64,000 nt of DNA, taken from contig NADL03000547.1 in assembly GCA_002205965.3 (NCBI GenBank), positions 1-64,000 of the forward strand, in the 5' to 3' direction. Positions 7,070 through 48,260 of the stretch are shown here, one piece after another. Within the stretch, counting starts at the first letter, position 1. Each line of letters starts with the position of its first letter. The notes below the pieces were generated by a model. That model was not told the DNA's origin and searched no databases. It saw only the letters and a program-made list of their open reading frames with translations. Both the position numbers and the translations under genes were made by a program. The DNA comes from Kappaphycus alvarezii. Taxonomy: Eukaryota; Rhodophyta; Florideophyceae; Gigartinales; Solieriaceae.

Positions 7070-7160
7070 CTGTTAGTTTCTAATTAAATTGCTCTACTTT
7101 TTTTCTCTTCACTGCCCGATATAAATTACTTTTGTTAGCTGAGACCCCAGTTCTTTAGGT

Positions 7161-7466
7161 TTAGGAGAGTAGCGCAATGTCATCTAAGGCGTTGCCTTGG
7201 TTGCCGAAGAGCCACCTCAACAAGGAAACGTGCTGCTTCACTGCGCTAAGTGCTGCAAAAAAATGCCTGAAACAGTTAGACAGCGATACCGACAACTCGA
7301 TTGGGGACGACTGGACCCCTAATTTTGCCGTTTGGTACACAAAACCATTGATGTAACCCAGCGAAAGGATGAAAGTCCAGGAGTTTTCAAGACCGCCACC
7401 GGTTAGGAGGTTTTTCTTACCATATCTCGTCACATAACCCCTGTTTACAGGGAGCCTTTTTGCCAC
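7161..7466 (-). CDS. Small open frame of unknown significance
   Basis: A 101-codon frame lies between the end of gene C and the end of the ParB-like copy 2. It begins only at GTG (within a CACGTG), so no ATG start supports it. The middle is moderately hydrophobic (G-Y-I-N-G-F-V-Y). No homologue recognised. It could be an exon, a remnant of a fourth family member, or chance. Confidence 0.2.
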   Translation of the reverse strand: MAKRLPVNRGYVTRYGKKNLLTGGGLENSWTFILSLGYINGFVYQTAKLGVQSSPIELSVSLSNCFRHFFAALSAVKQHVSLLRWLFGNQGNALDDIALLS

Positions 7467-10600: not shown

Positions 10601-10915
10601 CAGATCCGACTCGGCGTCCGCTTGTGAGGTGCATAGATCTATGGATGGAAGTGCTTCTAATTCCCTGGCGCTCAAGTTCCAAACCATTCCCTTCATAGAG
10701 CCGGGCGCGACATCGTTGAAGTGAGATCTATGCGAAGTCTTGATTCCCATGATAAATGTTCCTCTCTTCGCTTGGTCAAAACCAAAACTTTTCATGTCCT
10801 CCGCAATAACTTCGACAGTGGCATTATCGACAGGACGAAGAGCCTTCTCTGACATCGCATCGGAGATGATGTTGAGCTGCTTGATGCTAAAACAGGCACG
10901 GAACATTTGCGCCAT
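7615..10915 (-). pseudogene. Large protein with ParB/sulfiredoxin-like motif, copy 2, interrupted by three single-base indels
   Basis: Full-length counterpart of the gene at the left edge; about 1100 codons from the ATG at 10915 to TAG at 7615. The frame breaks at three places relative to copy 1: an extra base near 10208, an extra T near 10157, and a C6 instead of C7 run near 9667. The readable pieces are 10175-10915, 9627-10217 and 7615-9660. The N-terminal piece carries the FIDGRHRHRS motif (residues 110-119). The 681-residue C-terminal piece contains a basic Arg/Lys/Ser-rich segment and ends with a short cysteine motif, C-Y-E-C-P-I-C-G, suggesting a zinc-binding knuckle. Nearly all other bases equal copy 1, so duplication is recent, or the indels are assembly errors. 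No family is firmly recognised beyond the ParB-like motif. Confidence 0.75.
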
Positions 10916-11957
10916 TTGGAAGAGAGATGTTTAGAGAGGTATGCAACGAGTTAAGTTAGTAGAGAAATATAATCTGTTGATTCTGATATAGGTGCGGGTG
11001 GAGATGCAGGGTAGATGTGGATATGTTTGGAGAGGGAGAAGGAAGAGACGGAAGAAAAACGTTGGACTTTAAGTACCCAAATTAATTGCAAGCGCAGAAT
11101 CAAATCAAAGCAAATAGTAACTGACTATTGATTTTACAGTTGTAATTCTAAAAATTGTGATATACACGTGGCAACTGAAATCAAGAATGAAACCCAAATT
11201 GAAAACCCCTAAATCCAAGAATATATGTGCAGCCTGCTCTGAACTCTCTCCATTGCAACCCGCCGGCTCCTGGCCGTTTTATTTCGACGTTATGAACATG
11301 TTTTTGGAAGTAGAACCGGAAATTACACACTACGAATCCCCCGCCGTATATGATGGACGTTATGGTCATTTTTATGTAAACAGAACCGGGAAAGACTTTG
11401 TATTTCACAGAAAGTCGTTGTTGTGCAAAACCTCTTTTGCATGGTGAAAAAAAACCCTAAAACCCTAAAGCCGTATATGATGGACGTTATGGCCATTTTT
11501 ATGTAAACAGAACCGGGAAAGACTTTGTATTTCACAGAAAGTCGTTGTTGTCCAAAACCTCTTTTGCATGGTGAAATCATGTCAGATAGAAATATGTCCG
11601 GATGATCTTCGCTGCCATTTCTTTCAAAACACAATATGCAGAAATGACGGCTCGCTCCAAATTCTCTCATTCCGAACTGAAATTTCAAGGCCATGCAAGG
11701 TAGACTTTATGATCATTGTTTTGCAAGTAAGACCAGGAATGGCAAATACAATCTCTCTGTTGTAATAAATACGCTAAAACCCTGCCGTTTGTGATAGATT
11801 TCATGATCATTTTTATAGAAATAGAGCCTAGAATGACGCTCAAGTTCTATGAGCCTTGTAGAGGTCAAAAATCTCTTTACCATTGCTACATCATGTCAGT
11901 TAGAAACAAGTGCGGATGGCCCTCAATGTCATTTATCCATAAGTCCTATGTTTCTTA
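9491..11957. repeat. Segmental duplication, copy 2
   Basis: Matches 1-2465 (see copy 1). It includes the shared 5' flank of the ParB-like gene, the CACGTG site (11165-11170) and the 107-bp tandem repeat with telomere-like spacer (about 11343-11577). After base 11957 the sequence no longer resembles the copy-1 flank: gene A follows copy 1, gene-less DNA follows copy 2. Confidence 0.97.
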
Positions 11958-13504
11958 AGCAGTCCGTATGAACGTAAATGGCAAAATTCCTCCTTCCAAC
12001 ATGACTCTCACTCCTAGATCGCGTAAGACTTTGATATTCATGAGAATGATAAAAGCTCTCCATCCATGCTCGAAAGGCTCACACTGAGCGTCCTTTAAAA
12101 ATTCATTTTGAGGACAATCGCTCCAACGGATTTCAAGGCATATATTCCCACCCCACCATTAGCCTGAACCTCACATTACGAGCACCATGCAAATACTTAC
12201 TAAGGTGATCTGCTGTATTCATCAGGTTGCAACTGAAAACACACGCATCAACTAAATTGAATAAAGACCATAAGGTATTTGTACGTCACGTTTCTCATTT
12301 AGGAAGCATTGAACCAGCCAATGACTTGATTAAAGACAAATACATTCTCCAAATCCTTACATCCCGGACAGCATCATACTTTTCCTACTCTTGTGATATA
12401 AGCAATCCAACGGATTTCAAGTCATATTTATCCCCAAATGGATCTAGTAAACACAAAAAGGTCGCTCTGTGTCATTTTTTATCGACACCAATCACCGGAG
12501 CATTACATTCCACGCACCGGTAACAAGGCATACTAATACCAACTGCTCCATTTATCAGAATTTAAAATCATTTCTCTACCAAATGGATTCAAGGATTCAA
12601 TAAAGGCAAGACGGTATTCAGTTTTTACTTTTCTCAGTTAGGAAGCAATTTATAAACAAATGCTTTGAGTGCGTCACCTATGTATATTCAGCAGATCCTC
12701 GTGTTCAGGAAACCTTACCCAATTTCTTACTACTAACGATTGCTTGCGGAGTTTTTCGGATAAAAGCGAATTTGTATCCAGCTCACTTTACAAGGTCCCA
12801 AGAACACACTAAGAGCACATTGGATCACTTGTTCGCAAACAGAGCCGTCATCAATTCCGCTTAAAGAGCAAGTTTTTTTGCATTGGCCACTTTTATGCAG
12901 AGTTTGACTTGCAGCGTATCCAACATAAACCTTACTAATATCAACTGTTCATTTCATCGATTTTCACTGCAATCCCAAAAAATGGATATAGTAGGGAAAA
13001 TCAGGTAGCCCCGACCCATATCACTGCATAGGCCATGATCGCAGCACACAAATATAATATAGACGCTGAATACCACTATCAAGGGACACCTCAGCACAAG
13101 ATTCATGCTTTAGTTGAACAAACACTCCACAAAATCGAGTTTACCGTCAAAACCGCCTTAAAACATGGCAACACCACGAGTCTGCATGACGCTATCTTTG
13201 CACACTTTTTCATAAAATGTTGTGATACACTGCCTACTCCATCCATTTTTAAATAATAACGGGTTAATATAGGTCTGTAATCCATTTCCTAGAAAAAACG
13301 GTACAACCGCATCAAAAATAGGCAAAATCGACATTTTCGAAAAATTGTCATAACCCAAAATATTTTTACTTCTATGCCTTCAACTGTTGTTAGAAAGACA
13401 ATGAAGCACTCCTGAATACTTCCAAGGACCATCAAGCCTTATCGCAACATATAAATAACATGTGCAACAAATCCCCTCGGCCACCCAAATCCCCACCAGG
13501 CCAG
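11958..13504. repeat. Gene-less AT-rich stretch with diverged ~350-400 bp tandem repeats
   Basis: No credible gene. Related phrases recur: CAACGGATTTCAAG near 12126 and 12412, with CAAATGGATTCAAGG near 12580; TTAGGAAGCA near 12299 and 12648; and TACTAATACCAACTG near 12531 matched by TACTAATATCAACTG near 12935. The spacing suggests three or so highly diverged tandem units. They may be an old satellite or array of a non-autonomous element. Confidence 0.5.
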
Positions 13505-16281: not shown

Positions 16282-19242
16282 CTAACCGAGAATGTCTGAC
16301 ACAATTTGCTGAATAGGTTCGTATCCCACAAATGGCGGCAACGTGTGCGTGTATTCCTCCAGCAACTCGTCGAAGTTGATGTGCACAACCCGGAAAAATA
16401 ACATTTTCCGAATCTTGTCAGTCAAATTGATTCCTTGTGCAATGCCAGTGCGCTGGTGAATCAAAACGACGTCTCCAGGTTGCATCGAAACGCGCTTTGA
16501 GTTGCCCAGGTCCACATTCTTTTTTCGAAACGCAGGCAGAATGTTCTCTGTTTCCCCCTCTTCTTTAAGGGCATCTGACATGGCTGCATGGGTAATCATA
16601 TGTGATTCTGAAATCAGAATGAAAAAAATCAAACAAAAGATCAAATGCGTCAGCTCAACAGTTAAGGATATTTTGATCGGATCAACACAACGAATCGCTT
16701 TTTCGAGACATACCTGGCCAAACCACAAATTGCCCAGCATTCTCATCCTTATCTTGTCCCTCTGACAATGCGATTCCAACCAAAAAGTTAAAGTCCGAGC
16801 CAAGCCCCCTGTAGTCCAGATTTGGCCTGTCCAATTCCCACTTTTTGGGGGGTATGGCGCGGTCAGACTCATCCCCTGTTCAATAAACTCCTCGTTAGGC
16901 AGCAAATACGACACTGTTGGGATGTTCTCTCGCAAAGTAACACAGTTCTCTCCGAGCAATTGCTCGCACGCATGCACCAAACCACTTCGAAAGAATACGT
17001 CTCGCAGGATATCATGCTTGCGCACCTTCTTTTCAAATACGGGCATCGCCGTGCTTGAACCTAATCTATTTTTTCCATTCTGATGATATCTCCCCTTGTC
17101 ATACGCTTTGTCCAGATCATTCAATGCTCCCGCCACAAGCTCTTGTTGTACTAGCCCAGGCAGCACCACGTATCCTTCACGTACAAACGTCTCGATAAGT
17201 TCCCTCCCTACTTCGTAACGGCCGCTATTCGCTGCGGTAGAACTAGCTGCCAAACCCTCATTCCCCACTTTCTTCGATATATCCTTTTCAAATTCAGTCG
17301 CCCCTTCCGGAAGCAATTCCCTCAATCCATCAAACCCTACCCAGGGAGTTGGCGATTTCACAAAATCATGTAGCAACATATCCAATCGTGTGTCAACCAC
17401 CCTGAAGTACACATTCTTTCTCACATGTTCCGACAAATTGATACCAGGCGCATGCGCCAGTCGCTGGTGCGCAATCATGATATCACCGGGATGGAGCAGA
17501 GTGCGTATAGGATCACCAACGTCCAGATTCTGCTCGTAAAAGGTTCGAACGATGTCATTTGCAGGCGTCTGAAATAATTTACCGCCCCTCCACCGAAACA
17601 CAATCGACAAAAACAACTCAAAAGGTCAGTTGCCACAGCTAGTAACATGATAACCGCGAGGAGAAAGACGCTTAGTTGCAGTTTCTAACTTACGTTTTCA
17701 ATGACACTCGATAGAGAGGAATGGGTTTTCAAATGTGACCCAACCCAAATGTTAAACTGCCCGCGATTCTCATTAATGTATTGCCCATCTGACAAACACA
17801 CTCCACATAGCAACGAGAAATCAGAACCCCATGCTGCGTACTTACCATTGCCAGCATCGATATGCCACCTCTGCTTGGGGTGTGGTTCCTTCATATCCAT
17901 CCCTTGCTCCACGTACTGTTCATTCTGCACTGTATAGGCAATCTGAGCCAACTTGTTTCGAATCCGGCAATGACCCTTTCCCAAAAGATCCTCTGCGGCA
18001 CGCAGTAACCCAGTACCGTACGCCAAATCCAAAACTTCCGGCGCCTGCTTGACGGGTCTGACAAAACCAGGGACGGCTTTCTTCGACCCCGGTTGCGTTG
18101 TCCCGCTTGAGTTGTACTGTCCATTTTCGTACGCACCGTCAATCAAGTCCAGCGCAGCGCGCACCTTCTCAATGGGAACTGCTCGCTCCAGTATCACAAA
18201 GCCGTCCCGAATGAACGACTCCTTCTGCTCCTGACTCAGCACGGGTTCATCATTCATTTCAATTGTCACTCCGCTAGTAGATTCCTTCTTCGACCGGTTC
18301 AGTGTATAGTCCGCTGCGTCGTCTTCCAGAAACTCGGACAGGCCCTGAAAACCGACCCATGGAAGAGGTGCCGCCATCTGTTGATCTATGATGTTGTCGA
18401 CCTCAGCGTGGGCCACGCGGAAGGAGATGTGGAGGCTGGTTGTTTCTACGAGATTAGGAGCTGCGGCCATCGCCAACTTTTGATGGGCAACGAGCACGTC
18501 ACCGGGGTGGAGAAGAAGGCGGACAGGGGGGCCACAGTCGATGTGGCCCTTGTTCGTGTGCATAAGCTTAAGGGCATGATCATCGGGGCTCATCTTGGAT
18601 ACGATGCCATTAAGCGCAGTGTGGGTGACATAGTGCGAGCCTAGGGAAAAAAAGCCATAAAAGTGTCAGAGAGATGGGGGTGGCGGGAAAGGACAAGCCG
18701 AGCGGGAAGAATGGTGACTTACCCGGCCACACCACTATCTGGCCTCTATTCTCATCGAGGTGCATATCTTGCGACACGGCTACTGACATGAGGAGCGAGT
18801 GACCCCCTCCCTTGTTGGCATGTTTAGCCTGCACAGGCGTCAAAACCCTCCATCTCTTCTTCGGAAAGGGCTTCCTTAGCGGCATTTGTTGGTCCAGAAA
18901 TGGTTGACATGTGGGCATAAAATCAAGATGGGCACGATTGCCTACCAAAACAGCAAAGTCGTCGCCGAGAAGTTGCTCAGCAATTTCAAGGAGATGGGCC
19001 TTAAAGAAAAGGTCTGTGAGTTGGGAGGATTTGGCGAGCTGGGTGGGTAAACGGAATGTTGGAATTTCCTCTGAGAGCACGTTGCGTGTAATTGAGGGGA
19101 GATCCGACGCCGCAATTGCATCCTGGATGAAAGAGTTGGCGGAGGAAAGGAGGTCGGGAGGCACGGCAGATGGAAGAACAACGTAGCCACTTTGAGCGAA
19201 ATGGAGTTTTTGGTCGTCAGTGAGAGCGTTGAGACTGGTCAT
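16282..19242 (-). CDS. Three-domain phytanoyl-CoA dioxygenase (PhyH)-like protein, four exons
   Basis: Exons 18723-19242, 17694-18640, 16714-17568 and 16282-16607; introns of 82, 125 and 106 bp, all with GTAAGT or GTATGT donors and CAG/TAG acceptors. Phases fit to give about 882 residues if one base is restored in a C6A5 run near 16846, after which the frame reads K-K-W-E-L-D-R-P-N. Each third repeats a PhyH layout: G-[FY]-V-[VI]-L-[PE] start, E-N-[RA]-G-Q core, and H-P-G-D / Q-P-G-D ... F-R-V end. PhyH enzymes are Fe(II)/2-oxoglutarate oxygenases needing H-x-D, a distal His and Arg. The middle domain (about 310-600) has H433-I-D435, His528 and Arg545. Domain 1 has R-V-L-T and no distal His; domain 3 has E-L-D and no distal His. 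So one active domain flanked by two degenerate ones is inferred. No targeting signal is obvious. Substrate unknown. Confidence 0.85.
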
Positions 19243-19888
19243 GGTGTGGTTGCACTAATCTCAACTGGTATTATCTGTAATCGCTCCTGTCGCTGTTTTC
19301 ACGGACGGGAAGGATGGGATAGTAGACGCTAGCAAGAAGACGGCGGCTGAAAGTAGCGTTGCTTCTAAGTTGGTAAACCCAAGCGTGCAGAGATGCCTAC
19401 GCAACAGGTTTCGAGATCTCTTCGTAATATAAAAATTACCACCTGGTGAAATACCGTACTGTACAGTAATGTACTGTACGTACTAGTACTGTTGTCATTC
19501 TTTTATCACTGGTGTACTGTCCAAATGTGCAACGCAGAGCACTTAAAATTAAGTTTGAATTGGGTGACTAAATTACTGTACTGTACTGTAAAGTATAAGA
19601 ATTCGAGGGGAAGTATTTGACTTGCTTTGAGGAAAGATTATAGAAACCCAAGAACACAGTACTTTACAGTAATGGAATTTTATATACAGTGGGATTTCGT
19701 ATTCAAACCGGCAGCTGTGTATACTGTACTGCACATGTATGGACAGTACAACTTCACAAAGTTTCGAAGCACGGACCAGGACTCGATTACTTCCGATCAC
19801 TGATGCCTCTCTGGTCGGGTTACCGCCTGAAGTGAGTGAATAATTGCACCAGTGCTGAAGTAATTTAGAGTTTTCAATATAAACGGTG
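19243..19888. repeat. Intergenic stretch with dense TACTGTAC palindromes
   Basis: Between the PhyH start and the copia element there is no gene. Around 19445-19490 and 19570-19600 the sequence is built of TACTGTAC / GTACAGTA units, with more near 19660 and 19720. Similar clusters occur at 20165, 27200, 48690, 50340, 53155 and 60820, always outside host genes, so it is a genome-wide intergenic motif here. A promoter for the PhyH gene must lie near 19250-19450, but no TATA-type signal is certain. Confidence 0.6.
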
Positions 19889-19893
19889 CTACC

Positions 19894-20354
19894 TGTAGTA
19901 TCACAGCGCAAAAGGTATGACACGTGTAGCACGCAGCAAGGTTGCTGGTGGAAGTCTACTGTAAGCCCTACAAGCCGAGCTTACAAAGTCTGACATAACT
20001 ACTGACCGTTGTGCTCGACGGGTTGGCTTCCCCTTATTGCGGCAAGAACGAGTGTTTACTTCTTCTCTCTGATGGGTGATGATTCCTGTCTTGGACTTGC
20101 TCCGCTACTCGGTACAAAAGCCTTTACATAGACTTTTTTGTAGCCCGTCTGCACTGTATTTGGAAGTACAGTACAGTACAATATAGAACTAGTCCACCAT
20201 AAAAATTAAATCTAATGGCTACAGTAGAATTTGGTACTAGATTAATACAATAAAATATCTAAGCATTCTTGCTGAGCTGTCACAGGTGCTGCGCTGTCAC
20301 AGCAAAACGTTTGCCTGCTGCGCTGGCACTTTCGCACACCCTTTCTGTATAACA
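19894..20354 (-). repeat. Copia 3' LTR
   Basis: 461-bp LTR, TGTAGTATC...TATAACA on the plus strand. It contains a GTACAGTACAGTACAA motif near 20165 and a CACGTG near 19921. It is the 3' LTR because the coding strand is minus. The bases just inside (20355-20385) read purine-rich on the minus strand and may hold the polypurine tract. Confidence 0.93.
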
Positions 20355-20388
20355 TTCCCGCACTTTCAAAAAGCGAGGTAGGTGTGCC

Positions 20389-21502
20389 TTACTTCTTACG
20401 GATAATCCATTGCTCGATGAAGATTTTGGCAACTCTAGCCCGTAGAAGATTTACCAGAGGCTTGCAAACATTCGGCTTGGTTAGACCATCAGCAGGATTT
20501 GCGACACCAGCGATAAGTCCAACATTTGAGACTTCGAACTTGTTATAGGCTTCGCGAGCAGCAGCGATGTCTGTCATCAAACGTTTTTCAGTTGTATGGA
20601 AAGCACGGGTAAAGACATCGAAAATTTGCTTCGAGTCTGTGAACATTTTCAGAGGTATCTTACGGCGTAAGATGCGTTCCAAATCGTGTTTCAATATGTA
20701 AGCGACATCAAATGCGACGGAGAATTCGTACACTTCTCCAGCCATGATAGACCGTACGACGCGTCGAGACTGGCGGATGCTATAGTTCAAAACATGGTAG
20801 CGGTCTGCGTCATCACAAAGCAAAATAATGAATCCTAACTGCGAAGTGAGATCTGTGTTTGTCGCAAACTATGAATCTGCGTAAGCACGAATATGCAGAC
20901 TGTTGAAATTGAGCGGAGAATATTTTAAACGGATTTTTTAGTATCTTTCACGTAGTTAATGGAAGTATTAAGCTCGTCTATTGCCTTCTTTCCGACATTT
21001 TCAACGGTTACTTGTGCTGCGCGATTGATTGCACAGCATATGTCTGGACGAGTGTGCGATAGCCAACTGAATGCGGCTCGGACGGAACGAAAGAGTTCAA
21101 AGGTAGAATCCTTTGGTATTGTTCTGAGCTTGGCAAGATAGTCTGGTTGATGGGCGTATAAAGTTCGCTGACCATCAATCTATTTTTCAGTTTCAATATG
21201 GATGCCGACGAACTCAATATTGTCATACTCGACCGGTTTTGGCTCAAAAGAACGAGCTCTGAGTTCAATGAGCTTATCAAAATTTTCATTTCCAGCAAAC
21301 AAATTATCATCGAAATAGGCTCCAAGAAGTCTATCGGTACCCTCGGTACCTTTTTTCGCGTAATGGAAAGGATCTCCGTCGAGTGGTAGCATTCCTAGTT
21401 CGTTTTTGACGAAACATTCGAGAGTACCGCCCCAGTAGTCGCCAGAATAACATATACCATAAAGATGTCTTTTCAGCTTCAGTACTTGATCTCCTCAGAT
21501 GT
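20389..21502 (-). pseudogene. pol: Copia reverse transcriptase C-terminal part and RNase H
   Basis: Continuation of pol after a frame change near 21500. The catalytic box appears as A-Y-F-D-D-N-L-F (a YxDD variant) around 21285. The thumb-like segment S-H-T-R-P-D-I-C-C-A follows around 21050. RNase H covers 20389-20823 with F-T-D-S-K-Q-I-F-D-V and ends in G-V-A-N-P-A-D-G-L-T-K, typical of copia RNase H. Stops near 21180 and 20890 and frame changes interrupt it. Confidence 0.85.
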
Positions 21503-23632
21503 TCAAAACTTTCGATCTGCCTCACGGATCTTAAGATATATATCACGATTTAGCTTTTTTTTCGCTTGGTGGTAAGCTTGAACGAAATCAATCATTGCGA
21601 GGCGATAATTAAGAATGGCAGATACGGAAAGGATTATTGTTGTGGAGCTTTGGCGTAGCGTTGGGCAGCTATGCACTATAAACTCTTTCATGTCATCTTT
21701 GTAGCCTTGTCCAACGAAACGTGCTTTGGCCTTCTGACGGTCGGTACCTTGATTCTTTAGCGTAAGTTCAAATCTTCCACCGATAATGTTTGCCTTCCGG
21801 GGAAGAGACGAAATATTGACGACTTCCCAGACCTTGCGATCAGAAAGACCCTGAATCTCATTGCGTTTAGCTATTTCAAATGCTGCGGAGTTTGATCTTT
21901 TGTCAGCAGTAGGAATTTTCTCCATGATATACGTTAGGCTTGGAGTCTCGAAGACTTCAGTGTTTCCCTCTGTTTTGACCCGAACTTCAGCCATTATTTC
22001 TTGAACGGTTGCAAGAAATGCTGCGCCCGAGAATACTCGGTCAAAGAAGGTATCTATTTTGTCACGCTCATTATCAGACAATTTTTCCTTTCCTTTTTGG
22101 TGATCCGGATCCGTTATATACTCACGGACTCTGTCAATCGAAACACTTTTAAGTTCGTTATTGATAATGATCCAAAGATTTTTTTCATCTCCTGCAACAA
22201 CCTTGTATGGGCCTTCCCATGCTTTCAACTTTTCGCGATAGAATAGTACTTGGGATCCAATTCTAATCTCGCGGTCTGATGCAATCGGGAGGTTACGATT
22301 AAGAGCAGTGCGGATGCTGGCAGAAGCAGCAGCCTTAGACATTTCAGAGCGAGCATCTTGTAATGCTTTCATTCTCTCACGCTGCTCGGGAAGATCTGAG
22401 AATCGCAGCGGAAATTGTGGAACGATTCCAAACACGAGACGAGTGGGAGACAATCCATCTGGCCCGGCGGTGTTGTTCATGGCATGAACAGAAAGGGAAA
22501 GACAGTCATCTTTCGAAATCTTTGGGTGCTCCATTCTTACCTTACGATAAATTCGTCGGAGGAAGTCATGGTACTTTTCACCGACGCCAATAGCATTTTG
22601 GCTTTCGATACCTGAGTCCAAGCGTGTTATCTCACTCGCTTGTAGCAAGTGACGCCACCGGTCACTATCGAATTGTGGTTCACGATCAGTGTGAATTTCT
22701 TTCGAGTAACCAACGTACTTTGTAACCCATTGACGGACGTAAGCTGTCCATACGTTGTTTGCCGACTCTCCATCGAGGAATACTGCAGCACTGAACAACG
22801 TATCCTTGCAAACCATGTGTAGTACGGGCATGCTTTCCAAGTACATAAAATCCATAAGCAAAGTTCGGTTAAAGACTAAGTCTTCGCTTGGCAGTGCGAC
22901 GCGAAAACGACCAGGTTGTTTCGAAATCCTTTGACAAACATCACAAGATTCGGTAACTTTTTAAAGTGACTTAAGTGTCTCTGGTGTCGCTTGAGGATCC
23001 TTGGCCTGCTTCATCGTTTTGCATATTCTCAACGGATGCGGGTGATAAAAGTGCCGGTGGATTCTTTTTAATTTGGGCTCTGTATAAATAACTTCGTAGT
23101 TCCATTCATAGTAGGCATGGCCCAGCTTTCGACTGAGAGGTACGCTCCAGGAAGGATCTTTGCATCTGATACGATTATCCATTGTGTCTACTAGAAGCTT
23201 GTACTTATCAAGTACGTCGAGTCCTAAAAGAAGCGGTATTTCAATATCTACAACATCGAGAACGATTTTCATGTGACGGTTGTCGCCATATGGGATTCGA
23301 AATTTTGCTTTTCCGATACTTTCCTTCCTGTTTGCTCCAAATTTGTAGACCTTTGCTGCTGAAGATATGAGAGCTAGAGGGATTCCCATAAGGCGGTAGT
23401 ATGCCTCAGCTTGACTCTTCCCTACTACGGATCTCTGAGCCCCAGTATCCAAGCAGACTCTATTGAACCTTTCAATGCGTTTTGGGGCCGAAGGAGAAGT
23501 AAGTTTGATTGTAGCGCCACCTACAGATTTTTCATCATTTGTGTCACGGACATAATTAACAAGTGCATCGAATAGATCAAAAGTCTGTTTTTTCTTCTTC
23601 AACTTCATCGTTAACATATACATCTGTTTCAT
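21503..23632 (-). pseudogene. pol: Copia protease, integrase and N-terminal reverse transcriptase
   Basis: One frame, interrupted by a TAA at 22961-22963. Protease: C-L-D-T-G-A-Q (retropepsin D-T-G) near 23455. The integrase zinc segment has an H...H part before the stop and C-D-V-C after it. The integrase core has D in L-M-D-F-M-Y-L, D in H-T-D-R-E-P-Q-F and E in G-V-G-E-K-Y-H, giving the D,D,E triad. RT begins with V-W-E-V-V and includes A-K-A-R-F-V-G-Q-G-Y and M-I-D-F-V-Q-A-Y. The frame starts by overlapping the 3' end of gag by about 55 bases in the +1 frame. Confidence 0.88.
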
Positions 23633-25034
23633 CTGGTACTTCTTGACTCATTTCCTGTTTTGCTTTACTAACAGAGTCGAGCTGTTGACATAATTCAAAC
23701 AATACAACATGAGCATTTTGGGTGTTTCCATTTCTCTTCGACATGTACTCCATTTTTCGACGAGTGGCTTTAGCAAGGTCAATCTTATGCGGAAATGAAC
23801 TTAGCATATGGTCAGGGGAATCACAATTGAAACATCCCATGACCGAAAGTGGTCCAAATGGATCCTTCCTACTGCGGTAACTACGTGTATCACCGACACC
23901 ACGATGTCGGTTAGCGTAGCGACCAGGTCCTTGATAGAGTATCCCAGGGACCTTTTCGTCCTCATCTGAAGTAGTACGTGACCTAATTGCAACTTTATCT
24001 CTCATGTTTGCCAATTTGGCTTCCCTAGATAGATGCGAGTGTCCTTCAAGTTCTCCATAGAGTTGCTGAAATGAGAGTCCATGGGTAGCGACGGTACTTA
24101 ACGGGTCCGTTGCCCATGCAAAACCGACGGTAGCATTACGAAGAAAATAAATCTTGTGTGCTTCACTCCTGTGCAAAACAGGAATTTGCGGTGAAAGCTT
24201 TGTTATCAGCTTGTACAGTTTTTCAAGTGCTGGAAGCTCATTAAGGCCTTCAGAAGTATACTTAGATAACCTAAGTCCACAGAGATAGTTCTTCACTCGA
24301 TTTTGACGAATCACGGAGTTGTATTCATTACTAATGAGGTTTATGGCCTCAGTAAACGAATTAACTTCGTTATAAATTCAATCCAAGTAAAATCTCTTAG
24401 CATCACCACGTAGAAAGTTATGAAGGTATTGCTTCTTCTGCACAGTGCTGAGACCATAGTCACGAGCGACTTGTTGGTACTCGGCAACATATTCCATCCA
24501 TGACTCACCAAGGTCTCCCGAGAATTTTTGGTCCTTGTCACGGAATCTTGAGCCCATGTAGTACGCCAATTTGTCCTGATGCGTGGGGACGGATGTAGCA
24601 AGAGATTGTCCATCTTCGGTGGCTGATTGTTCCTGACCTCTTCGGGTTGTACGACGACCTGATTTCATTATGTCCTTTGTTATTTCTTCTGCAGCTAACT
24701 TGTCTTCGTCTTCGGTATAGAGATTAGCGGCTAGCTGGCGGATAACACGACGAGAACTATGCGGCGGCATATTTTCTCCACGGTCATTCAACCAGTCACA
24801 AAGTGCTTTATAAGCAATAGGCAGAGCTTTTATGGCAGGAGAGAACAATACAGCAAGTGGAAAAAGTTTGGCAACCTCATCCGCTACTTGAGGTCCAGTC
24901 ATAGACCGAGCGGAGACACGATTCTCTAGTAATTGAATTGAGTTAATGAATCCAAAAACCTCTTGAGAGACATTTTCCAGTGCTATCTGAGACAAAAACA
25001 AGTCCGATAGATTGGCAGTGCTTCCTTGTTCCAT
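23577..25034 (-). pseudogene. gag: Copia gag with zinc knuckle, one in-frame TGA
   Basis: The ATG at about 25034 (M-E-Q-G-S) opens a frame that would run 485 codons to 23577 except for a TGA at 24378-24380 (F-Y-L-D-stop-I-Y-N). The nucleocapsid-type knuckle reads C-F-N-C-D-S-P-D-H-M-L-S-S-F, so the last Cys of the C-x2-C-x4-H-x4-C pattern is Phe. The tail is acidic (D-E-V-E-E-E-K). A protein-like, helix-rich capsid region precedes the knuckle. Confidence 0.85.
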
Positions 25035-25222
25035 GTTGATCACTGACCTAGAAATTAGGATAACTTTTGACTTGTTTCCAACAGAAATTTAGTGTGTGAG
25101 CAATAATACTCTGGTTCATCGTTGACGAAGGGATTTTCAGGATTTTGTTCAGTGGAGTAGTATGCAGTTGTAAGAAAAAAGTGTGGAATAAAACTGAGGA
25201 CACTGTGAGGATAATTCGCGAA

Positions 25223-25682
25223 TGTAGTATCGCAGCGCAAAGGTATGACACGTGTAGCACGCAGCAAGGTTGCTGGTGGAAGTCTACTGTAAGCCCTACA
25301 AGCCGAGCTTACAAAGTCTGACATAACTACTGACCGTTGTGCTCGACGGGTTGGCTTCCCCTTATTGCGGCAAGAACGAGTGTTTACTTCTTCTCTCTGA
25401 TGGCTGATGATTCCTGTCTTGGACTTGCTCCGCTACTCGGTACAAAAGCCTTTACATAGACTTTTTTGTAGCCCGTCTGCACTGTATTTGGAAGTACAGT
25501 ACAGTACAATATAGAACTAGTTCACCATAAAAATTAAATCTAATGGCTACAGTAGAATTTGGTACTAGATTAATACAATAAAATATCTAAGCGTTCCTGC
25601 TGAGCTGTCAAGGGTGCTGCGCTGTCACAGCAAAACGTTTGCCTGCTGCGCTGGCACTTTCGCACACCCTTTCTGTATAACA
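25223..25682 (-). repeat. Copia 5' LTR
   Basis: 460-bp partner of 19894-20354. On the coding (minus) strand the internal region begins TTCGCGAATTATCC; this is where a primer binding site should lie, but it does not start with TGG, so the primer is unclear. Confidence 0.93.
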
Positions 25683-40700: not shown

Positions 40701-40932
40701 GCCACTAAACATCTCCGTCTAATAGTCGCCTTTCAATGCACACACGCGGTCCCCTTGATAAAAAATGCCATTTAGGCTCTTTTGAAGCATGATCAAGGAC
40801 TCTGATCTCATCACTGTACCGTTCATTGATATGTATAATACAGTCTGACGTGAGAAATCACTGTATTACTTAGGTCATACATTTTTCATGCATCTAACTA
40901 TTTATGGTAATGATTCTAAAACTGGATATTTT

Positions 40933-41277
40933 TGCCGCCCTTTGTTGGCTGTGGGCGGAGGGAGAAAAGAAAAAAAGAAAAAGTAAAAATAGAAAAGAAT
41001 TGGGTGGCCGTTTCCCCAGGGTTCATTGTCTCCCCCCCTTTTTCACTCCCCGGCAGGCCGGCAGAGGTTTATATGCGGGTGAGCAGTGGGTGGCAACACC
41101 AGGTTGAACTAAACACTGCCCACCTAAAAATTAAAAAATAATCATAAAATTGTAGAAAATAACTAAGAAAGTAGACCAGACTACAGTAGCTCCAGTTTAG
41201 GGGCCGTCGAAATAAAACTGCGTCATACAATTGCCCAAATTCATACACTTTCTAGAAGCATCCACGAGCTCACGACA
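40933..41277 (-). repeat. Gypsy 3' LTR
   Basis: Starts TGCCGCCCTTTGTTGG and ends CGAGCTCACGACA. It contains an A-rich purine run (GAAAAGAAAAAAAG) and CAGTGGGTGGCAACACC. Partner at 47915-48260. Confidence 0.9.
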
Positions 41278-41650
41278 CCACCCCGGCTCCAGATGGAAGC
41301 CCGGCGCACCATATAATCGTTACTTTGCTCGGGCCTCGGGCCCGACTGCTGCACCTTGCTAGTGCCGGCAAGCAACCCTTCCCCTTCGGTGAATACCTCC
41401 GTTTCTTCCGCGCGAACCCTCCTCCTTTCCGTAGCGCCGTTCTCTCTCAAAACGCAAGTTGATTCAGGGCAGCTAATGCCCTCCGGGACTGCCCCATCCT
41501 TGTTACTACGAGAGGGGGTTAAACGGCTCCAGACCCATCTGAAAATTCCTATGCGGACTATTAAGATGCGAAGACCAACCAGACCGCCAGGAAATCAACT
41601 GGGGGAAACCTCCCCGAAAGCAACTTTGGCAGAAAGCGGCTCGAAAGACC

Positions 41651-43091
41651 GTGGGCGAACCCTCGCAGGGCAACAACTCGGTCATCTCGAAATTTCCCGG
41701 TCCATCGTTCGAGCCCTATCGGACCGCCCAATACTTTCGCGTCGACAGTCTTCGTAGTGGCGTGAGCAAACGCAAAGTGACTACGCATTCGAATCGACCA
41801 GAGACGACCAAAATTCAGAAATCAAAGGTCAAGGATCCTTCGCTCAACGACGTCTTCTATCAGCTTTCGTTTGGAGGTTTCCGGGAGGCTGAGCCGGCGT
41901 CGGCGGAAGTTTCCTATCAGGAGTTGGAAACGCTGTACGGAAAGAACATCACGAACTTCGTGGCTTCTAAGGAATGTGTGGACGGCATTGACAGGGATCT
42001 TGCGGTTCGACTTAGCTTGACATAGTCGCTCGCCGATGAGGATGATTATTTGGAGTTCCCCGAGGTTCCCGAATGGATAATCTCGTCTGTTGTTTGGAGA
42101 GCTCCAGAAGGGGTTAGCGACAGCTCCGCGGGCCGCTATTACGCTGTCGATGAGGAAACCGAAGAAGAGCACCCGATCGACCTCTACACCTTTTCCTTCA
42201 ACGAGATACCTAAGGGTTACGCTGACCACAATCCTTCAAATCATCAACAAGGCATTTTGCAGGTATCTGAGTTCGAGAGTGGGAGTCATCCTGCAAATAG
42301 ATCGTTGGTGTCAGAAGAATCCGAATGAACACTTTTGCGTGTTATTTCCGATGTCGAGGGTCCCCTCCCTTCTTTCGTCACCGCATCTTCTCTTGCACCT
42401 TGTCGTGCGCTTCAGTGACTTCGATGGGCGCTGCATACAAGCTGTAGTCGCGAACGTCGTTTCCCTTATCTTCGGTCGGGGCCCGGCGGATAACTACTGG
42501 AAGACGGATTAAATCCGCGATCACGACACTTTAGAGCAGCTTGGCTATCGCCCCAGGTCTCTTTCCTTTGCCGACGTACAAAAGGGTTTATACGAAGTCT
42601 ACCAAGATCTCGTGATTCTGCGCCACGTTAGACCTTCTAAGGGTTTATCCAAACACACCAAGAGGAGCCTTCGGCGTGAAGTGGAGTCCTCCATTGATGC
42701 TGACTGGATGAAAACGTTGCCAAGTTCTCCTGATCACGGGATTTATGTCGCGGCCGTTATACGGGGACTTGGGTCGCAGCATGCGTTTTGCCTTCACGCA
42801 AGAGAAGAGCCCATCCTTATCTACGATTGCGCAGAGAAACACGCCATTCTGTTTCTCAATGACTCTCTCGAGACATTTTGCGACGAGAAGAATCCGGCGG
42901 ATTTCTTGAAACTGGACGACGTGTGCCGTGTAGTCCCTCTAAATGGAAAGGGCGTTCCCTCTCTCGAGTCGACAATTCTCTACAAGCCTTCGGATTCGGC
43001 CAACAAGAAGCGTTGCCGGCGCCGTTCGAGGGCCTCGCTTGCCTCTTCCTCCGACCGCAAACGCTCCAGTGCGGGCACACCCGGACGCTGA
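41651..43091 (+). pseudogene. Antisense accessory ORF of the gypsy element with cysteine-protease-like C-H-D pattern
   Basis: Plus-strand frame opposite to gag-pol, between integrase and the 3' LTR. 41651-42328 is one frame with a TAG near 42023 and is acidic (D-E-E-T-E-E-E-H). After a frame change, 42340-43091 is one frame with one TAA at about 42510. This second part reads D-G-R-C-I-Q-A-V-V-A-N (Cys codon 42432), then L-G-S-Q-H-A-F-C-L (His codon 42780), then L-I-Y-D-C (Asp codon 42825). That order and spacing resemble papain-fold cysteine peptidases. A basic tail follows (K-K-R-C-R-R-R-S). Some plant Tat/Retand gypsy elements carry antisense ORFs at this position, but I know of none with a protease. 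The peptidase call is an inference from motif order. The copy is broken. Confidence 0.5.
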
Positions 43092-43395: not shown

Positions 43396-44440
43396 TTAAA
43401 CTCGACAAGGTCCGAAGAAACGGGACCGAAGCGCCAGCCATTTGACCGTGAAAATTAAGGCCTGTCCGTGTGCGACTAGGACCCATTCACCTACATTAAA
43501 CATTGCCGGGGTCCCAGGTCTATCTCTGTCAGCATCACATTGCAACTGTGCCTCTACCCTGGTTGCCCATAAGGCTAGTCCAGCTAGGAGTTCTACTCGG
43601 CGATGTACGTTGGAAGCATTCGCTATCAGTGAGACAGCATCGGATGGGTTCAGGCGTGGCGCGACCCCGAGCATTAGCTCGAATGGCGAGGCTCCCGTTG
43701 TTAGGGGCCGGCGGCGGTATCCATACAAGACGCGTGGGAGGCAACTGTCCCAATCGGCCTTCTGCCCAATTACCATTTTTTTAATCCTAGCCTAGATGGT
43801 GCGGACCATTCTTTCCGCGCGGCCATTCGACATAGGAGCGTAGGCGAGCACGGCACTTCAGCTCACTCCGTTCTTCTTCATGAAATCAACCAGGGCAGAG
43901 GCTGTAAAGCATCCCGCCTTGTCAGAAATGATTTTTTTGGCGGTCCGGAAAGGGAGACGATCTTCTTCTGCACGCACCCGATCACAACTTCAGCCGATGC
44001 GTTCTTCGTGACAGCGGCGATAAGCCACCCGGTCAGATGTTCGACGGCGATAAGAAGAAATTTATTACCCATACGAGACTCCGGGAATGGCCCTGCGAAA
44101 CCAATCAAGTATTTTTCGAAGCCATTCGTGAGCGGAATCCCCAATGTTGTCCGATACGGAATCAACGGGCTCGCCCTCTGGCAGGCTTCACAGCTCTTCA
44201 CGTAGTCTTGGATGTCTTAACTGACTTGAGGCCACCAAAAGCGATCAATAACGAACTTTTTCGTTGTTTCCTTATTCCAATGACCGATATAGTCATGAAA
44301 AGTCCTTAATATCGTCGATCTGTCTTTGATGGCCGGTATCGTGCGAAGACCGTTCTTAGCTCGCCTCAGTGACTTGCCCTCCCAGAGCATAAATTATTTG
44401 GCGGCACGCTTAATGGAACGGCGCTTCACAGGGTCCTTCT
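43396..44440 (-). pseudogene. pol: Gypsy integrase
   Basis: Zinc region: H-D-Y-I-G-H and later C-E-A-C-Q-R form the HHCC pattern (44170-44300), with a stop between. Core: F-E-K-Y-L-I-G-F-A-G-P-F-P, where the usual first catalytic Asp is Gly; I-S-D-K-A-G-C-F supplies the second Asp; N-G-R-A-E-R-M-V supplies the Glu. The C-terminal part (43396-43776) includes G-Y-R-R-R-P-L-T-T-G-A-S-P-F-E-L-M-L-G. Several stops and frame changes. Confidence 0.85.
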
Positions 44441-44451
44441 TAGGAACCTGA

Positions 44452-44495
44452 AACCCCTGGATGTAATGGGTTTTTAGGGTATTTAGGGGTTTAAG
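44452..44495. repeat. Telomere-like TTTAGGG patch inside gypsy pol
   Basis: GGGTTTTTAGGGTATTTAGGGG plus a nearby AAACCCC lies between the RNase H and integrase regions. Bases around it (GGAACCT... and ...GAGGTTCC) form short inverted ends. It interrupts the polyprotein and looks like filler at a repaired break. Confidence 0.65.
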
Positions 44496-45043
44496 TGAGG
44501 TTCCAAAACGGTCTCGTCGACAACTGCGCCGCCAGATCCTACCCTTGCCAACAAATTTCCTTCATTGGCGTCCTGTGCGGCCGAGAAATCATCGGGTATT
44601 ATGCGCGAAAGGTAGTCAGCAGCGCCGTTCCCGGCTCCGGGACGGTACTCCACCTTGAACTCGTATTCGGCTAGAAAATCTAACCAGCGCGCTAATCTTC
44701 CATCACCATCGCTCTTCTTGAAAGCATAATGGAGGACTTGGTGGTCTGTAACCAATTTGAACGGTATTGTCGACAGCAAATGCACTCGAAACTTCTTGAG
44801 TGCGAAAATAACAGCGGAAGCCTCTCTTTCACACGCCGAGTAGTTCCGTTCCCACGAGTTCATAGTCCTACTTGCGAACTGCATTGGATGTATCTTTCCA
44901 TCTTCTTTCTTCTGTGCAAAAAACGCTCCGATTGCGACACTTGAGGCATCAGTTTCGACAATAAACGGCGTTTCGAAATCCGGAAAAGTCAGAAGAAGTG
45001 GAGAAGTGAGGTTTTCCCTTAAATTCTCGAATGCTTCCATCAT
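44483..45043 (-). pseudogene. pol: Gypsy RNase H
   Basis: V-E-T-D-A-S-S-V-A-I-G-A, then R-N-Y-S-A-C-E-R-E and L-V-T-D-H-Q-V-L: the standard D-E-D arrangement of gypsy RNase H. Ends with Y-L-S-R. The frame is otherwise open for 186 codons and is joined to RT by a frame change near 45050. Confidence 0.9.
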
Positions 45044-45103
45044 GTCGGCCGTCCAGATGAAGTCCTTGTTTCCCGAGGTCGGCTGAAACCTTGGCGAATC
45101 CTT

Positions 45104-45856
45104 TCATGAACCGGCGATAATAGCCAGCAAGCCGAGAAAGCTGCGAAGCTCATTCGTTTTTCTTGGTACTTGAGCCTCCTTGATTGCTTTAATCTTCTCT
45201 TCATCCACATGAACTCCATTCTTGTCAAATCGGTGTCCGAGCAAGCTAGCTATCGGTTTTGAGAACTCCAATTTCGTAAGCTTGAGCTTCATTCCGGCTT
45301 TCTGAATGGCTTTGAACACACTCTTTAAGTTCTCAACGTGTTCCTCTATGGAATGTGAGAACATCACAACATCATCCAGTTAAACACGGGCAAAGCGAAT
45401 TTTTCGCAGAATAAAGTCCATCATACGTTGAAAGGTCGACGGTGCGTTCATCAGGCCGAACGGCATGACCTCAAACTTGAAGGTTCCGTAACGACAAACA
45501 AACGTGTTCATCTCCTTACAGTCCTCGCTCACGCGAACCGGCCAATATCCGGCCAATAAATCGAGGGTGATGAACACTGAGCAACCATCCAAGTCGTCGA
45601 ATGTTTCTTCGATCTTGGGAAGGTCCGCATTCATCCTGCGGTTCAGAGTGCGGTAGTTCACTCAAAATAGAGGCTTTTCATCCTTTTTGGTCGCAATGAC
45701 GACGGGAAACGACCAAGCGGAGGCAGCGGGGGTCACTATTCCTGCTTCCAACATCTTATTGATCTCTTGGCGGGCGGTTTCTTTATGTCGAGGCGATAAA
45801 CGACGAGCCTTATGATAGATTGGGGTCGGGTCCTTTAACTCGGATTTGTGCTCCAC
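45104..45856 (-). pseudogene. pol: Gypsy reverse transcriptase
   Basis: R-R-L-S-P-R-H-K-E, then G-I-V-T-P-A-A-S-A-W-S-F-P-V-V, then N-Y-R-T-L-N and F-I-T-L-D-L-L-A-G-Y-W and M-P-F-G-L-M-N-A-P-S-T-F. The catalytic box should read Y-L-D-D, but the Tyr codon is TAA (about 45379), so the sequence is stop-L-D-D-V-V-M-F-S. A further stop lies at 45661. Clear gypsy RT, dead. Confidence 0.92.
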
Positions 45857-46151
45857 CGGGACCGACGCGGGACGGAGCTCGTAGATCGTCCATGCGACTA
45901 TATCGGTCTCCGGAGGGCATCGCTGATATCCGCCTGTGTGTCTTCCTGTAGATGCACCAGTCTTGCTCTAAGCGCACCCCTTAGTTCTTCGTCTTGATCC
46001 TCTCCGATAGCAGCGCTATTTTCATCAGTCGCTCCATCAAGTTCTTCGTCCTGCGATGTTTACCAAATGGCCAAGACGAGCTCCTCCTCCAAGGTATCTG
46101 ATGAATCTGGGCCAGCGTTTGAATCAGAAGTGAAATCTTCGCTGTGGGTTC

Positions 46152-46982
46152 CTACCTCTCCTTCCTCTCCAGTCTCTTCTCGGTAGCTTTAGTGTTCGGC
46201 TCGAGGGGTAATACAATTTCTTCGGATCCAACGTGGAGACACAAGCTCCGGGTGCCGAAATTCATATTCGCACGCAAAGCGGAGAGGGTGGGGCTTCCAA
46301 TTACGAGGTCGAATGGCAACTTCTCCACGACGAGGTAGTCCAGCTTGACTGCTTGGATTCCAAACGTTGTAGGAACTTGGAGTAACGAGCCGAGGCGAGA
46401 AGAGCTTTCCCTATTCGCAACCGTGATTCTCTTTGCTGTATAGTTCGGAGAGAGGTACAGAAGTCTGGACAAGTCTGCTGACATAACGTCAGGGACAGCA
46501 CTGCAATCAAGTAGTGCCCAAGCATCGGTACCATAAACTTTCACTTGAATCAATCGAAGCAAACTTGGTTCAACGTTGGAGACGAAGGTTACACGGGGGA
46601 TAATCTTGCTCTTCCCGAGAAGGCGGCGCATCACTTTAGATCCAACGTCTGCGTCCCCACGAAGGAGTTGGCCAAAAGTAAGTCCACAGTTGGCAGTCGC
46701 CAGTTTCGAGACAACGTCGTACTTTCCGACGTATTCTTGTATCTTGTCTGCCTTCTTCTTTCCTCTGTTGGTCTTCTTGGCCTTCTTCATTCGATCAACT
46801 TCTCGGAAATTGGCCTGTGGGTGGTTCGGTCCCGCATGCGGAGGGTGAGCTGCTTGAGGGCTAGCTACGAGGCGGGATATCGGAATGCCTCCATAAGATT
46901 CTTGTCGGGGTTGCTTCGGAAGTGTTTCGCCGTCTGCATTTCTCTTCGTGTCGTTGACGCCTTCTTCTTCCGATGATCCCAT
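46152..46982 (-). pseudogene. pro: Gypsy protease region
   Basis: 276-codon frame with a linker, then a retropepsin-like fold: V-Y-G-T-D-A-W-A-L-L-D-C-S-A, where D-S-G or D-T-G is expected, followed by D-L-V-I-G-S-P-T-L near 46290, typical of the I-I/L-G motif near the end of the fold. The changed active site means it is inactive. Confidence 0.75.
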
Positions 46983-47080
46983 GTCGGCCGATTCTCACGG
47001 AGAACATTCACTTTCCCAGACTCTTCGCCTTCTTCTTTGGGCTTTTCCTTAACATCAGACTTTTTCAACGGCGCGGACCA

Positions 47081-47912
47081 TCACATGGCCTCTGTGTGTT
47101 CCATCCTGCCGCAGTGAACACAAAGGGTATTGCGGTGCGGGTTCTTCTCGCACCTCAAGGCTGTGTGACCCATCTCATTGCAGTAGAAGCACTGCCTAAC
47201 TCGGTTGTTCTTCTGGATTCCCGTAGAAAATCCGGCCACCGGATCCCCCTTCTTGTTCTTTAGAAACAGCGTAAGCTGGGAAAGGTCTTCTGCCAAAGCA
47301 TCTACCTTGTTCTCGATGTTCCTCGAACGAGCGTCTGGACGAACCATTCGCTTTGCGGGCGAGACATTGGTGATGGGGTTTGAGGGGCCAGCAAAGGCGA
47401 GTTGGTTCGAATGAAAGTCCCTTAAAGCCTTGAATGTATCTGAGTAGTCCTTAGGTCCGCGGAATGACAGACATTTCTGTAGTCCCTTGTAACGAAAGGC
47501 GGCGGTGCGAAGTAACCCAAATCTTGCGATATTGTCGAACCCTGCATTCTCGTAGAGTCTTCCCATCTCTTTTAGTGAGCCAGGGATATCACAGATCTCT
47601 AGGCCGATCTCCAAAGCTTGACGAATAATATCTTGAGGGTCTTATTCTTTGACAAAATGATCGAAAAAGCGAGCTTTGACGGCGGTATAGTTCTTCGCAT
47701 CATCAAGTAACGCCGTGTTCGACGCGAAAGTGTCATAGTAGAAGTCAAACGCCACTCCATCCAGATGATCGAGGATAGCGAGGGCTTTCTCCTCTCGGAT
47801 TTAAGGACATGATGAAGTTCTCGAAGAAGAAGAAGAATTTTTGCACGTCGCTTGACCCATAGAAAACGACGAAGCTGGGGCCGAGCGTCCCGTCCCTGCG
47901 CAAGAGTACCAT
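47081..47912 (-). pseudogene. gag: Gypsy gag with CCHC knuckle
   Basis: A candidate ATG at 47912 lies within the primer-site candidate just inside the 5' LTR. The capsid-like part is broken by a frame change near 47800 and a TAA near 47642. The first knuckle is canonical: C-F-Y-C-N-E-M-G-H-T-A-L-R-C. A second, C-V-H-C-G-R-M-E-H-T-E-A-M, ends at TGA exactly where the fourth zinc ligand should be. A Lys-rich linker follows in the protease region. Confidence 0.8.
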
Positions 47913-47914
47913 GT

Positions 47915-48260
47915 TGCCGCCCTTTGTTGGCTGTGGGCGGAGGGAGAAAAGAAAAAAAGAAAAGGTAAAAATAGAAAAGGATTGGGTGGCCGTTCTCCTC
48001 AGGGTTCGTTATCTCCCCTCCTTTTTAAATCCCCGGCAGGCCCGGCTGGGTTTATATGCGGGTGAGCAGTGGGTGGCAACACCAGGTTGAACTACACACT
48101 GCCCACCTAAAAATTAAAAAATAATCATAAAATTGTAGAAAATAACTAAAAAATAGACCAGACTGCAGTAGCTCCAGTGTAGGGGGCCATAGAAATAAAA
48201 CTGCGTCATACAATTGCCCAAATTCGTACACTTTCTAGAAGCATCCACGAGCTCACGACA
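47915..48260 (-). repeat. Gypsy 5' LTR
   Basis: 346-bp partner of 40933-41277; same ends, but with scattered substitutions and small indels, for example in the CTCCCC/TTTTT stretch near 48010-48030. Confidence 0.9.

Follow-up and report, generated by a model that had tools for sequence, protein, structure and literature searches.

The window (the whole stretch of 64,000 nucleotides analysed here) carries on its minus strand a single copy of a dead, LTR-bounded Gypsy element. In a self-comparison of the window, the 5' LTR (47914..48260, minus strand) aligns with the 3' LTR (40932..41277, minus strand) at 94.0% identity over 349 columns. The parts of gag and pol, all on the minus strand, follow one another from 47641 to 43396. 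The gag part with a zinc knuckle (47081..47641) matches zf-CCHC at E 0.014, under the cut-off, and the aspartic protease region (46152..46994) matches gag-asp_proteas at E 0.15; a relative matches Asp_protease_2 at E 3.8e-6. The reverse transcriptase region (45104..45967) is broken by stops; of its three frames, the two that were scanned match RVT_1, at E 3.5e-13 and 2.7e-6. RNase H (44483..45103) matches Pfam RT_RNaseH at E 2.9e-34. The integrase remnants (43396..44216) match Integrase_H2C2 at E 0.0016 and rve at E 0.16, both under cut-off. Some of these domains thus stay under the Pfam cut-offs in the window, and they are clear in relatives. The LTR pair and the order gag, protease, reverse transcriptase, RNase H, and integrase identify the element as a Ty3/Gypsy LTR retrotransposon. 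An Rfam scan of the window is empty.

Between the integrase and the 3' LTR, the plus strand carries a broken antisense ORF, which extends from about 41566 to 43091. The sequence-only reading was right that an ORF is present on this strand, but its start lies further upstream than was proposed, near 41566, about 290 nt inward of the LTR. The N-terminus (41566..41653, plus strand) is a histone H3 tail up to about residue 29, which a tblastn search with an H3 query finds in two adjacent frames. It is followed, on the same strand, by a conserved N-terminal part (41717..42022; matched in 17 of 20 larger stretches from the host genome), a middle part (42026..42325; matched in all 20), and a C-terminal domain (42411..43088) that is defined by translation and by genome matches and contains one in-frame stop. 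The motifs reported from the sequence are present at their places on the plus strand: the candidate nucleophile Cys (42432..42434) in GRCIQAVVAN, the candidate catalytic His (42780..42782) in GSQHAFCL, and the candidate catalytic Asp (42825..42827) in LIYDC. A single stop separates the open stretch with the Cys from the following one, which holds the His and Asp in the same frame. The domain ends in a basic tail that includes KKRCRRRSR (42999..43088, plus strand), resembles a nuclear localisation signal, and recurs as a basic run in relatives. By translation, the stop codon of the ORF is at 43089-43091 (plus strand). The window copy of the ORF is interrupted by in-frame stops and frame changes, in agreement with the earlier description of the element copy as broken.

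On its own, the window copy provides weak evidence, by which chance is excluded only moderately. An ORF of at least 192 aa is expected by chance in 9% of 5000 Markov-simulated regions. The Cys-His-Asp pattern occurs in its loose form in 18,402 of 20,000 shuffled proteins and in its tight form in 478 of 20,000. Simulations match the longest near-open path with at most four breaks (1772 nt) in 0 of 300 order-1 and 8 of 300 order-2 runs, and the path with at most two breaks in 9 and 39 of 300, respectively. Of the four ORF pieces, three have codon-use z values between 1.8 and 2.8 in the ORF frame, and one has values between 0.4 and 0.7. Since z rises to as much as 1.9 in the complementary minus frame, codon use is only a hint. 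The comparison with other copies is decisive.

The host genome (336 Mb, 884 contigs) was searched for such copies. The DNA of 41700-43091 is found at 43 places including the window, the rest being 92-66% identical. The protein encoded by 42513-43088 gives 150 scored matches of 405 candidates, the window included, and the others are 83-29% identical. Because 13 pairs are pieces of one copy, the 150 scored matches correspond by hand count to about 137 distinct places. The sequence-only reading named the lack of the frame in other copies as a point against it; the other copies keep the frame. Twenty larger stretches, picked for good or long matches, were read. Because the copies used were those with the best scores and the greatest match lengths, the sample is not random. 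In 19 of the 20 stretches, the ORF is followed by an integrase on the other strand, the two converging. L041 has its ORF within an LTR pair of 95.9% identity, and the Met of the tail is about 319 nt inward of the LTR. The window LTR gives no blastn match to L039, L041, or L059. Judged from L041, whose frame is interrupted by one stop, the protein is about 500 aa long. None of the 30 copies that bear the tail is open from the tail to the end, and the longest reaches 428 aa. No relative was confirmed in collections of viral contigs (queried with the ORF and with pol pieces), genome contigs, or phages, where the contig scans see only places with a short peptide pattern.

Two of the stretches have unusual surroundings. 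L056 (G000:C586), the exception among the 20, is a deep-branching copy with a decayed H3-like tail, and its 7.5 kb stretch contains no match to integrase, RNase H, or reverse transcriptase; it is perhaps a non-autonomous, domesticated, or truncated form. In L045, a second H3-tail match (5942-6046) and second integrase pieces (6516-7322) lie beside the first copy, which suggests that this neighbourhood holds a second, shortened element.

The protein of L041 starts with MAHTKQTARRSTGGRAPRLELACKAARKR. Searched against PDB, this region (L041:1880-2018) matches histone H3 at E 4e-8, and the tail of L002, whose first 30 residues (counting the Met) are 80% identical to H3, matches it at E 1.2e-8. The L041 tail matches 137 PDB sequences at E ≤10, and the best 60 of the 137 are H3, H3 variants, H3 chimeras, and one chain named Cse4. 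The L002 tail likewise matches 137 PDB sequences, and again the best 60 of 137 are H3, H3 variants, H3 chimeras, or a chain named Cse4. With H3 as the query, the tail is detected near the ORF start in 28 of 37 copies (E <0.01, within 510 nt around the start); 50 shuffled H3 queries match a mean of 0.3 and a maximum of 4 of the 37. When two tails of the family are added as queries, the tail is found at the ORF start in 30 of 37 copies, and the next conserved block lies 125-200 nt away, usually 171-195 nt. The tail is missing from its place in the other 7 of 37; L045 and L048 have a displaced tail-like match, and the flank of L021 is cut. A search of all 39 copies in full finds the tail at the expected place in 25 copies and gives 5 hits elsewhere, 3 of them in sequences in which no anchor was found and 2 displaced from the anchor. 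A search of the host genome with the first 90 aa of the L041 protein yields 430 candidates, of which 150 are scored matches; some overlap, and at least three fall on host histone H3 genes. The histone fold (PF00125) has no match in four ORFs, three of which have the tail, and it does match the host histone genes. Given its position at the very N-terminus, the tail is probably placed where it can be exposed. The sequence-only reading overlooked this tail, which points to chromatin far more directly than the protease-like pattern does.

The tail is under selection. In the 19 of 30 tails that were compared (9 out of register at the start, L047, and L056 were left out), dN/dS is 0.18 in one clade (6 copies) and 0.25 in the other (13 copies), and the two subgroups of the 13-copy clade give 0.32 (4 copies) and 0.45 (9 copies). 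Counts per position cover the 21 of 30 tails that start in register; L047, which then loses it, is one of them. Gln5 and Thr6 are each kept in 19 of 21, Ser10 in 18, Leu20, Lys23, and Arg26 each in 18, and Lys27 in 19. Lys4, Lys9, Lys14, and Lys18 vary among the 21. At position 4, Asn (11 tails) outnumbers Lys (6); at position 9, Lys (14) outnumbers Arg (6); and at position 14, Arg (13) outnumbers Lys (3). K9 is mostly retained in one group of copies and K4 in the other, and K23 and K27 are retained in both. The tail is thus an imperfect one (K4 in 6, K9 in 14, K14 in 3, and K27 in 19 of 21), and therefore no single site explains it.

The tail is also old. Four host histone stretches were read, of which L061 and L062 are open H3 genes with the canonical tail and L064 is another histone. 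In 20 of the 21 element tails, 14-23 of 29 residues agree with host H3 (L061, L062), and only 3-11 of the codons for those residues are identical; the remaining tail, L047, is out of register. Identical codons at shared residues number 10 of 23 in L002 and 4-5 of 22 in L041. The element tail is thus saturated in its codons against the host H3 genes. Tail-bearing copies occur on both sides of the midpoint-rooted ORF tree, and therefore the tail was probably acquired before the split. In the fourth host stretch, L063 (G000:C695:2281560-2282020), also an H3 gene, the frame breaks within the tail, perhaps through an intron, decay to a pseudogene, or an assembly error.

Selection also acts on the body of the ORF. 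Pairs were used if they shared at least 100 codons (60 for the pol controls) and had dS above 0.05 without saturation; the pairs share branches and are not independent. Among 39 copies (291 usable pairs), the median dN/dS is 0.57 at dS 0.05-0.3, then 0.45, 0.26, 0.20, and 0.14 with rising dS, the last bin being dS 1.5-4. RNase H of 24 of these copies gives medians of 0.55, 0.44, 0.46, 0.25, and 0.12, the last two from 3 pairs and 1 pair, and one reverse transcriptase piece from 17 copies gives lower medians, from 0.39 to 0.06. The closest ORF pairs have dN/dS near or above 1, as is expected for copies that decay after insertion. Closest pairs excepted, the values are well under 1, in line with the purifying selection that the sequence-only reading had looked to. 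As dN/dS falls with distance in the same way as in RNase H, the antisense protein was selected while the elements lived.

The Cys, His, and Asp of the C-terminal domain are mostly kept. The Cys is present in 31 of the 38 copies that have a residue there, the His in 31 of 39 (one of the others has a stop), and the Asp in 32 of 39. On the ORF tree, which holds 38 of the 39 copies, Cys, His, and Asp change 0, 1, and 0 times on internal branches. The tree likewise shows no internal-branch change in 113 of 450 columns overall and in 68 of the 229 in the domain. For each of the three residues, 139-150 of 454 columns equal or exceed it in conservation. The three residues are thus conserved no more than many other columns, which fits a catalytic triad without proving one. 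Their order, Cys-His-Asp, and the His-to-Asp spacing of 15 are those of papain-like peptidases (C39, Josephin, papain; order Cys-His-Asp/Asn), and we presume a resemblance to the Josephin and C39 signatures in particular; unlike these families, the domain has no sequence or profile match. The peptidase-like order claimed from the sequence is retained in its papain-like form, and neither a family nor a structure match accompanies it. In Ulp1, the residue order is His-Asp-Cys, and a Ulp1-like reading of the domain was dropped on this ground.

For the antisense ORF, and leaving aside the H3 tail, searches of Pfam, NCBIfam, and PDB sequences with window pieces, relatives, and profiles give nothing above the curated cut-offs and no peptidase match, and a PHROGs search with window pieces gives nothing credible. 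Peptidase C48 (Ulp1), OTU, and Josephin have no match at E ≤1 in 16 open frames and none at E ≤10 in the window pieces and four ORFs, in searches in which the HMMER filters drop most weak matches. Hits at chance level include MrpR_N_CB (E 0.022) and an EGF model, which one of the 16 frames matches at E 0.035; the best PDB profile match, OXA-1 at E 0.61, is noise. A single-sequence AlphaFold2 model of the window ORF has a pLDDT of 36, too poor for a fold search. The model would place the Cys in the first helix and the His and Asp in strands, a papain-like layout that carries no weight at this pLDDT. We hypothesise from the residue pattern that the C-terminal domain is a peptidase, and it may represent a new peptidase family. 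Lys and Arg abound at the C-terminus of at least 10 of the 12 open frames extending that far, and this basic tail is probably a nuclear localisation signal.

Antisense ORFs at this place are known from plant Tat/Retand elements. The aORF-3R of Grande, RIRE2, and Retand likewise lies between pol and the 3' LTR in antisense, has been conserved over a long time, and is suspected of a nuclear role, according to passages of PMC11963269 and PMC7264820. In the account of PMC11963269, nearly all clusters of plant Retand antisense ORFs encode TRP28 (PF04195), whereas the ORF described here starts with an H3 tail instead, and PF04195 is absent from the Pfam matches of the window pieces and relatives. 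The words 'protease' and 'peptidase' are absent from the main text of both papers (PMC11963269, PMC7264820). Passages of PMC2836005 and PMC4640811 describe OTU and Ulp1 domains in Ginger1, Helitron, and Mutator, and Ulp1-like domains in NeSL/Utopia. Ginger1 transposases, with their C-terminal OTU/Ulp1 domains, share with our element the association of a cysteine protease (here putative) with a Gypsy-type integrase (as described in PMC2836005). In Ginger1, however, the protease is of a named family and forms a sense fusion with a DNA transposon's transposase, as that description has it (PMC2836005); here, the domain is antisense and has no family match.

Viral histone mimics are a close parallel to the tail. 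Those described in passages of PMC10208167 are influenza NS1 (ARSK), SARS-CoV-2 ORF8 (ARKS), adenovirus protein VII (AKKRS), and polydnavirus CpBV-H4; the role of ORF8 as a nuclear mimic is disputed, according to part of PMC10833455. As in these cases, a selfish element would present histone or histone-tail sequence in the nucleus, the nuclear place being probable in ours. The viral H3-like mimics described in PMC10208167 are short motifs, and CpBV-H4 is an H4 orthologue, whereas the antisense protein, which a retrotransposon encodes, opens at its very N-terminus with about 29 H3-tail residues in register. The review of histone mimics makes no mention of transposons (PMC10208167). The titles and abstract openings of the open-licence PMC papers listed on histone mimicry and transposons, or on cysteine proteases and retrotransposons or antisense ORFs, contain no transposon-encoded H3 tail. 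N-terminal H3 mimicry is also found in cellular proteins, where, as Chen, Horton, Sagum et al. reportedly describe, it engages methyl-effector proteins. Those mimics are host proteins and host-encoded, whereas the present one is encoded by a retrotransposon.

Any explanation has to account for the antisense gene, its place in the element, its H3 tail, and the selection on both tail and body. Transposons are often silenced via marks on the H3 tail, and the combination of an H3 tail with a protease-like domain suggests interference with the host silencing machinery. On balance, we favour the reading that the antisense ORF is an accessory gene of the Gypsy element whose H3 tail mimic serves as bait for H3 enzymes or readers and so blunts silencing. 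An antisense transcript would give the protein, and its basic end would carry it into the nucleus. A Met before Ala is normally removed; the tail would then start as in H3, with Ala-Arg/Lys/His-Thr. The tail could occupy H3 methyltransferases, demethylases, or readers, offering K9 and K27 contexts in one group of copies and K4 and K27 contexts in the other, and the silencing of the element would be blunted by the host factors so engaged. The C-terminal domain, as a putative papain-like peptidase, may act on what the tail recruits. The fuller version of this idea, a long-kept antisense chimera of an H3 tail and an unknown, possibly proteolytic domain that traps or destroys writers or readers of H3 marks, with clades that differ in K4 or K9 in the manner of an arms race, is tentative, and we would put it at somewhat under even chances. 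If true, a selected, element-encoded H3 tail with lysine variants would point to histone mimicry in an intragenomic arms race. One antisense retrotransposon gene would thereby gain a suggested function, in a class of genes whose roles passages of PMC7264820 call unknown.

Other roles for a domain with this residue pattern are less probable. Ranked next, and unlikely, is an H3-clipping peptidase, in which the papain-like domain would cut H3 tails and erase silencing marks and the H3-like N-terminus would be a pseudo-substrate, a propeptide, or an autocleavage site. The mostly conserved Cys-His-Asp pattern with its spacing of 15 is consistent with such an enzyme, as is the retention of Leu20, Lys23, Arg26, and Lys27 in 18-19 of 21 tails in which Lys4, Lys9, Lys14, and Lys18 vary; clipping of H3 by proteolysis is a known phenomenon in the account of PMC13198579. 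However, the domain has no fold or family match, and the His changes once on an internal branch. The sequence-only reading had proposed a deubiquitinase or deSUMOylase acting on host silencing factors, for which the H3 tail would be only an address. The papain-like residue order agrees with this proposal, but the Ulp1 residues come in a different order. OTU and Ulp1 domains do occur in other transposons (passages of PMC2836005 and PMC4640811), whereas here Pfam gives no match to OTU, Peptidase_C48, or Josephin, and we give the proposal little credence.

Other readings rest on the tail rather than on the domain. Chromodomain integrases of other Gypsy elements target H3 marks, and by the reverse logic the H3 tail might be a tether that docks the protein and the integration complex onto H3 readers and steers new copies to chosen chromatin. 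The protein is element-encoded, probably nuclear, and H3-like, as such a tether would be; it is encoded on the strand opposite to gag-pol, though, and therefore not built into the polyprotein, and we regard the tether as doubtful, below the clipping peptidase and above the deubiquitinase in our ranking. Antisense transcripts of LTR elements can act as RNA (as described in PMC7264820), and a captured 5' end of an H3 gene could be a passive hitch-hiker on a transcript that matters as RNA rather than as protein. The idea is very improbable, since both body and tail show purifying selection on the protein and the synonymous codons are scrambled relative to host H3 while the residues are kept. Chance similarity to H3 or an annotation artefact might be suspected from the window copy, which is weak alone because its tail is split over two frames. 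The E values of about 1e-8 to 4e-8 from two separate clades, together with the shuffled controls, refute it, and its probability is negligible.

Further features were noticed elsewhere in the window. Direct repeats of 2.47 kb, 99.5% identical, lie at 1-2470 and 9492-11960. The roughly 7 kb between them contain ORFs of 302, 605, 689, and 331 aa with no credible Pfam match, and the whole may be a large mobile element, recent and of no recognised kind. A DGRHRHRS motif is present in the ORF at 10175-10930 (minus strand), which we take to recall ParB-like proteins. A Copia-type element at 19894-25682 has terminal repeats at 19894-20354 and 25223-25682 that are 98.3% identical, and its matches to integrase and reverse transcriptase are weak. 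Several long open frames follow one another in 16282-19254 (minus strand). One of them, at 17688-18665 (minus strand), is without a match in a profile scan, and another, at 16285-17625 (minus strand), matches phytanoyl-CoA dioxygenase (PhyH, E 3.7e-10) in three stretches.
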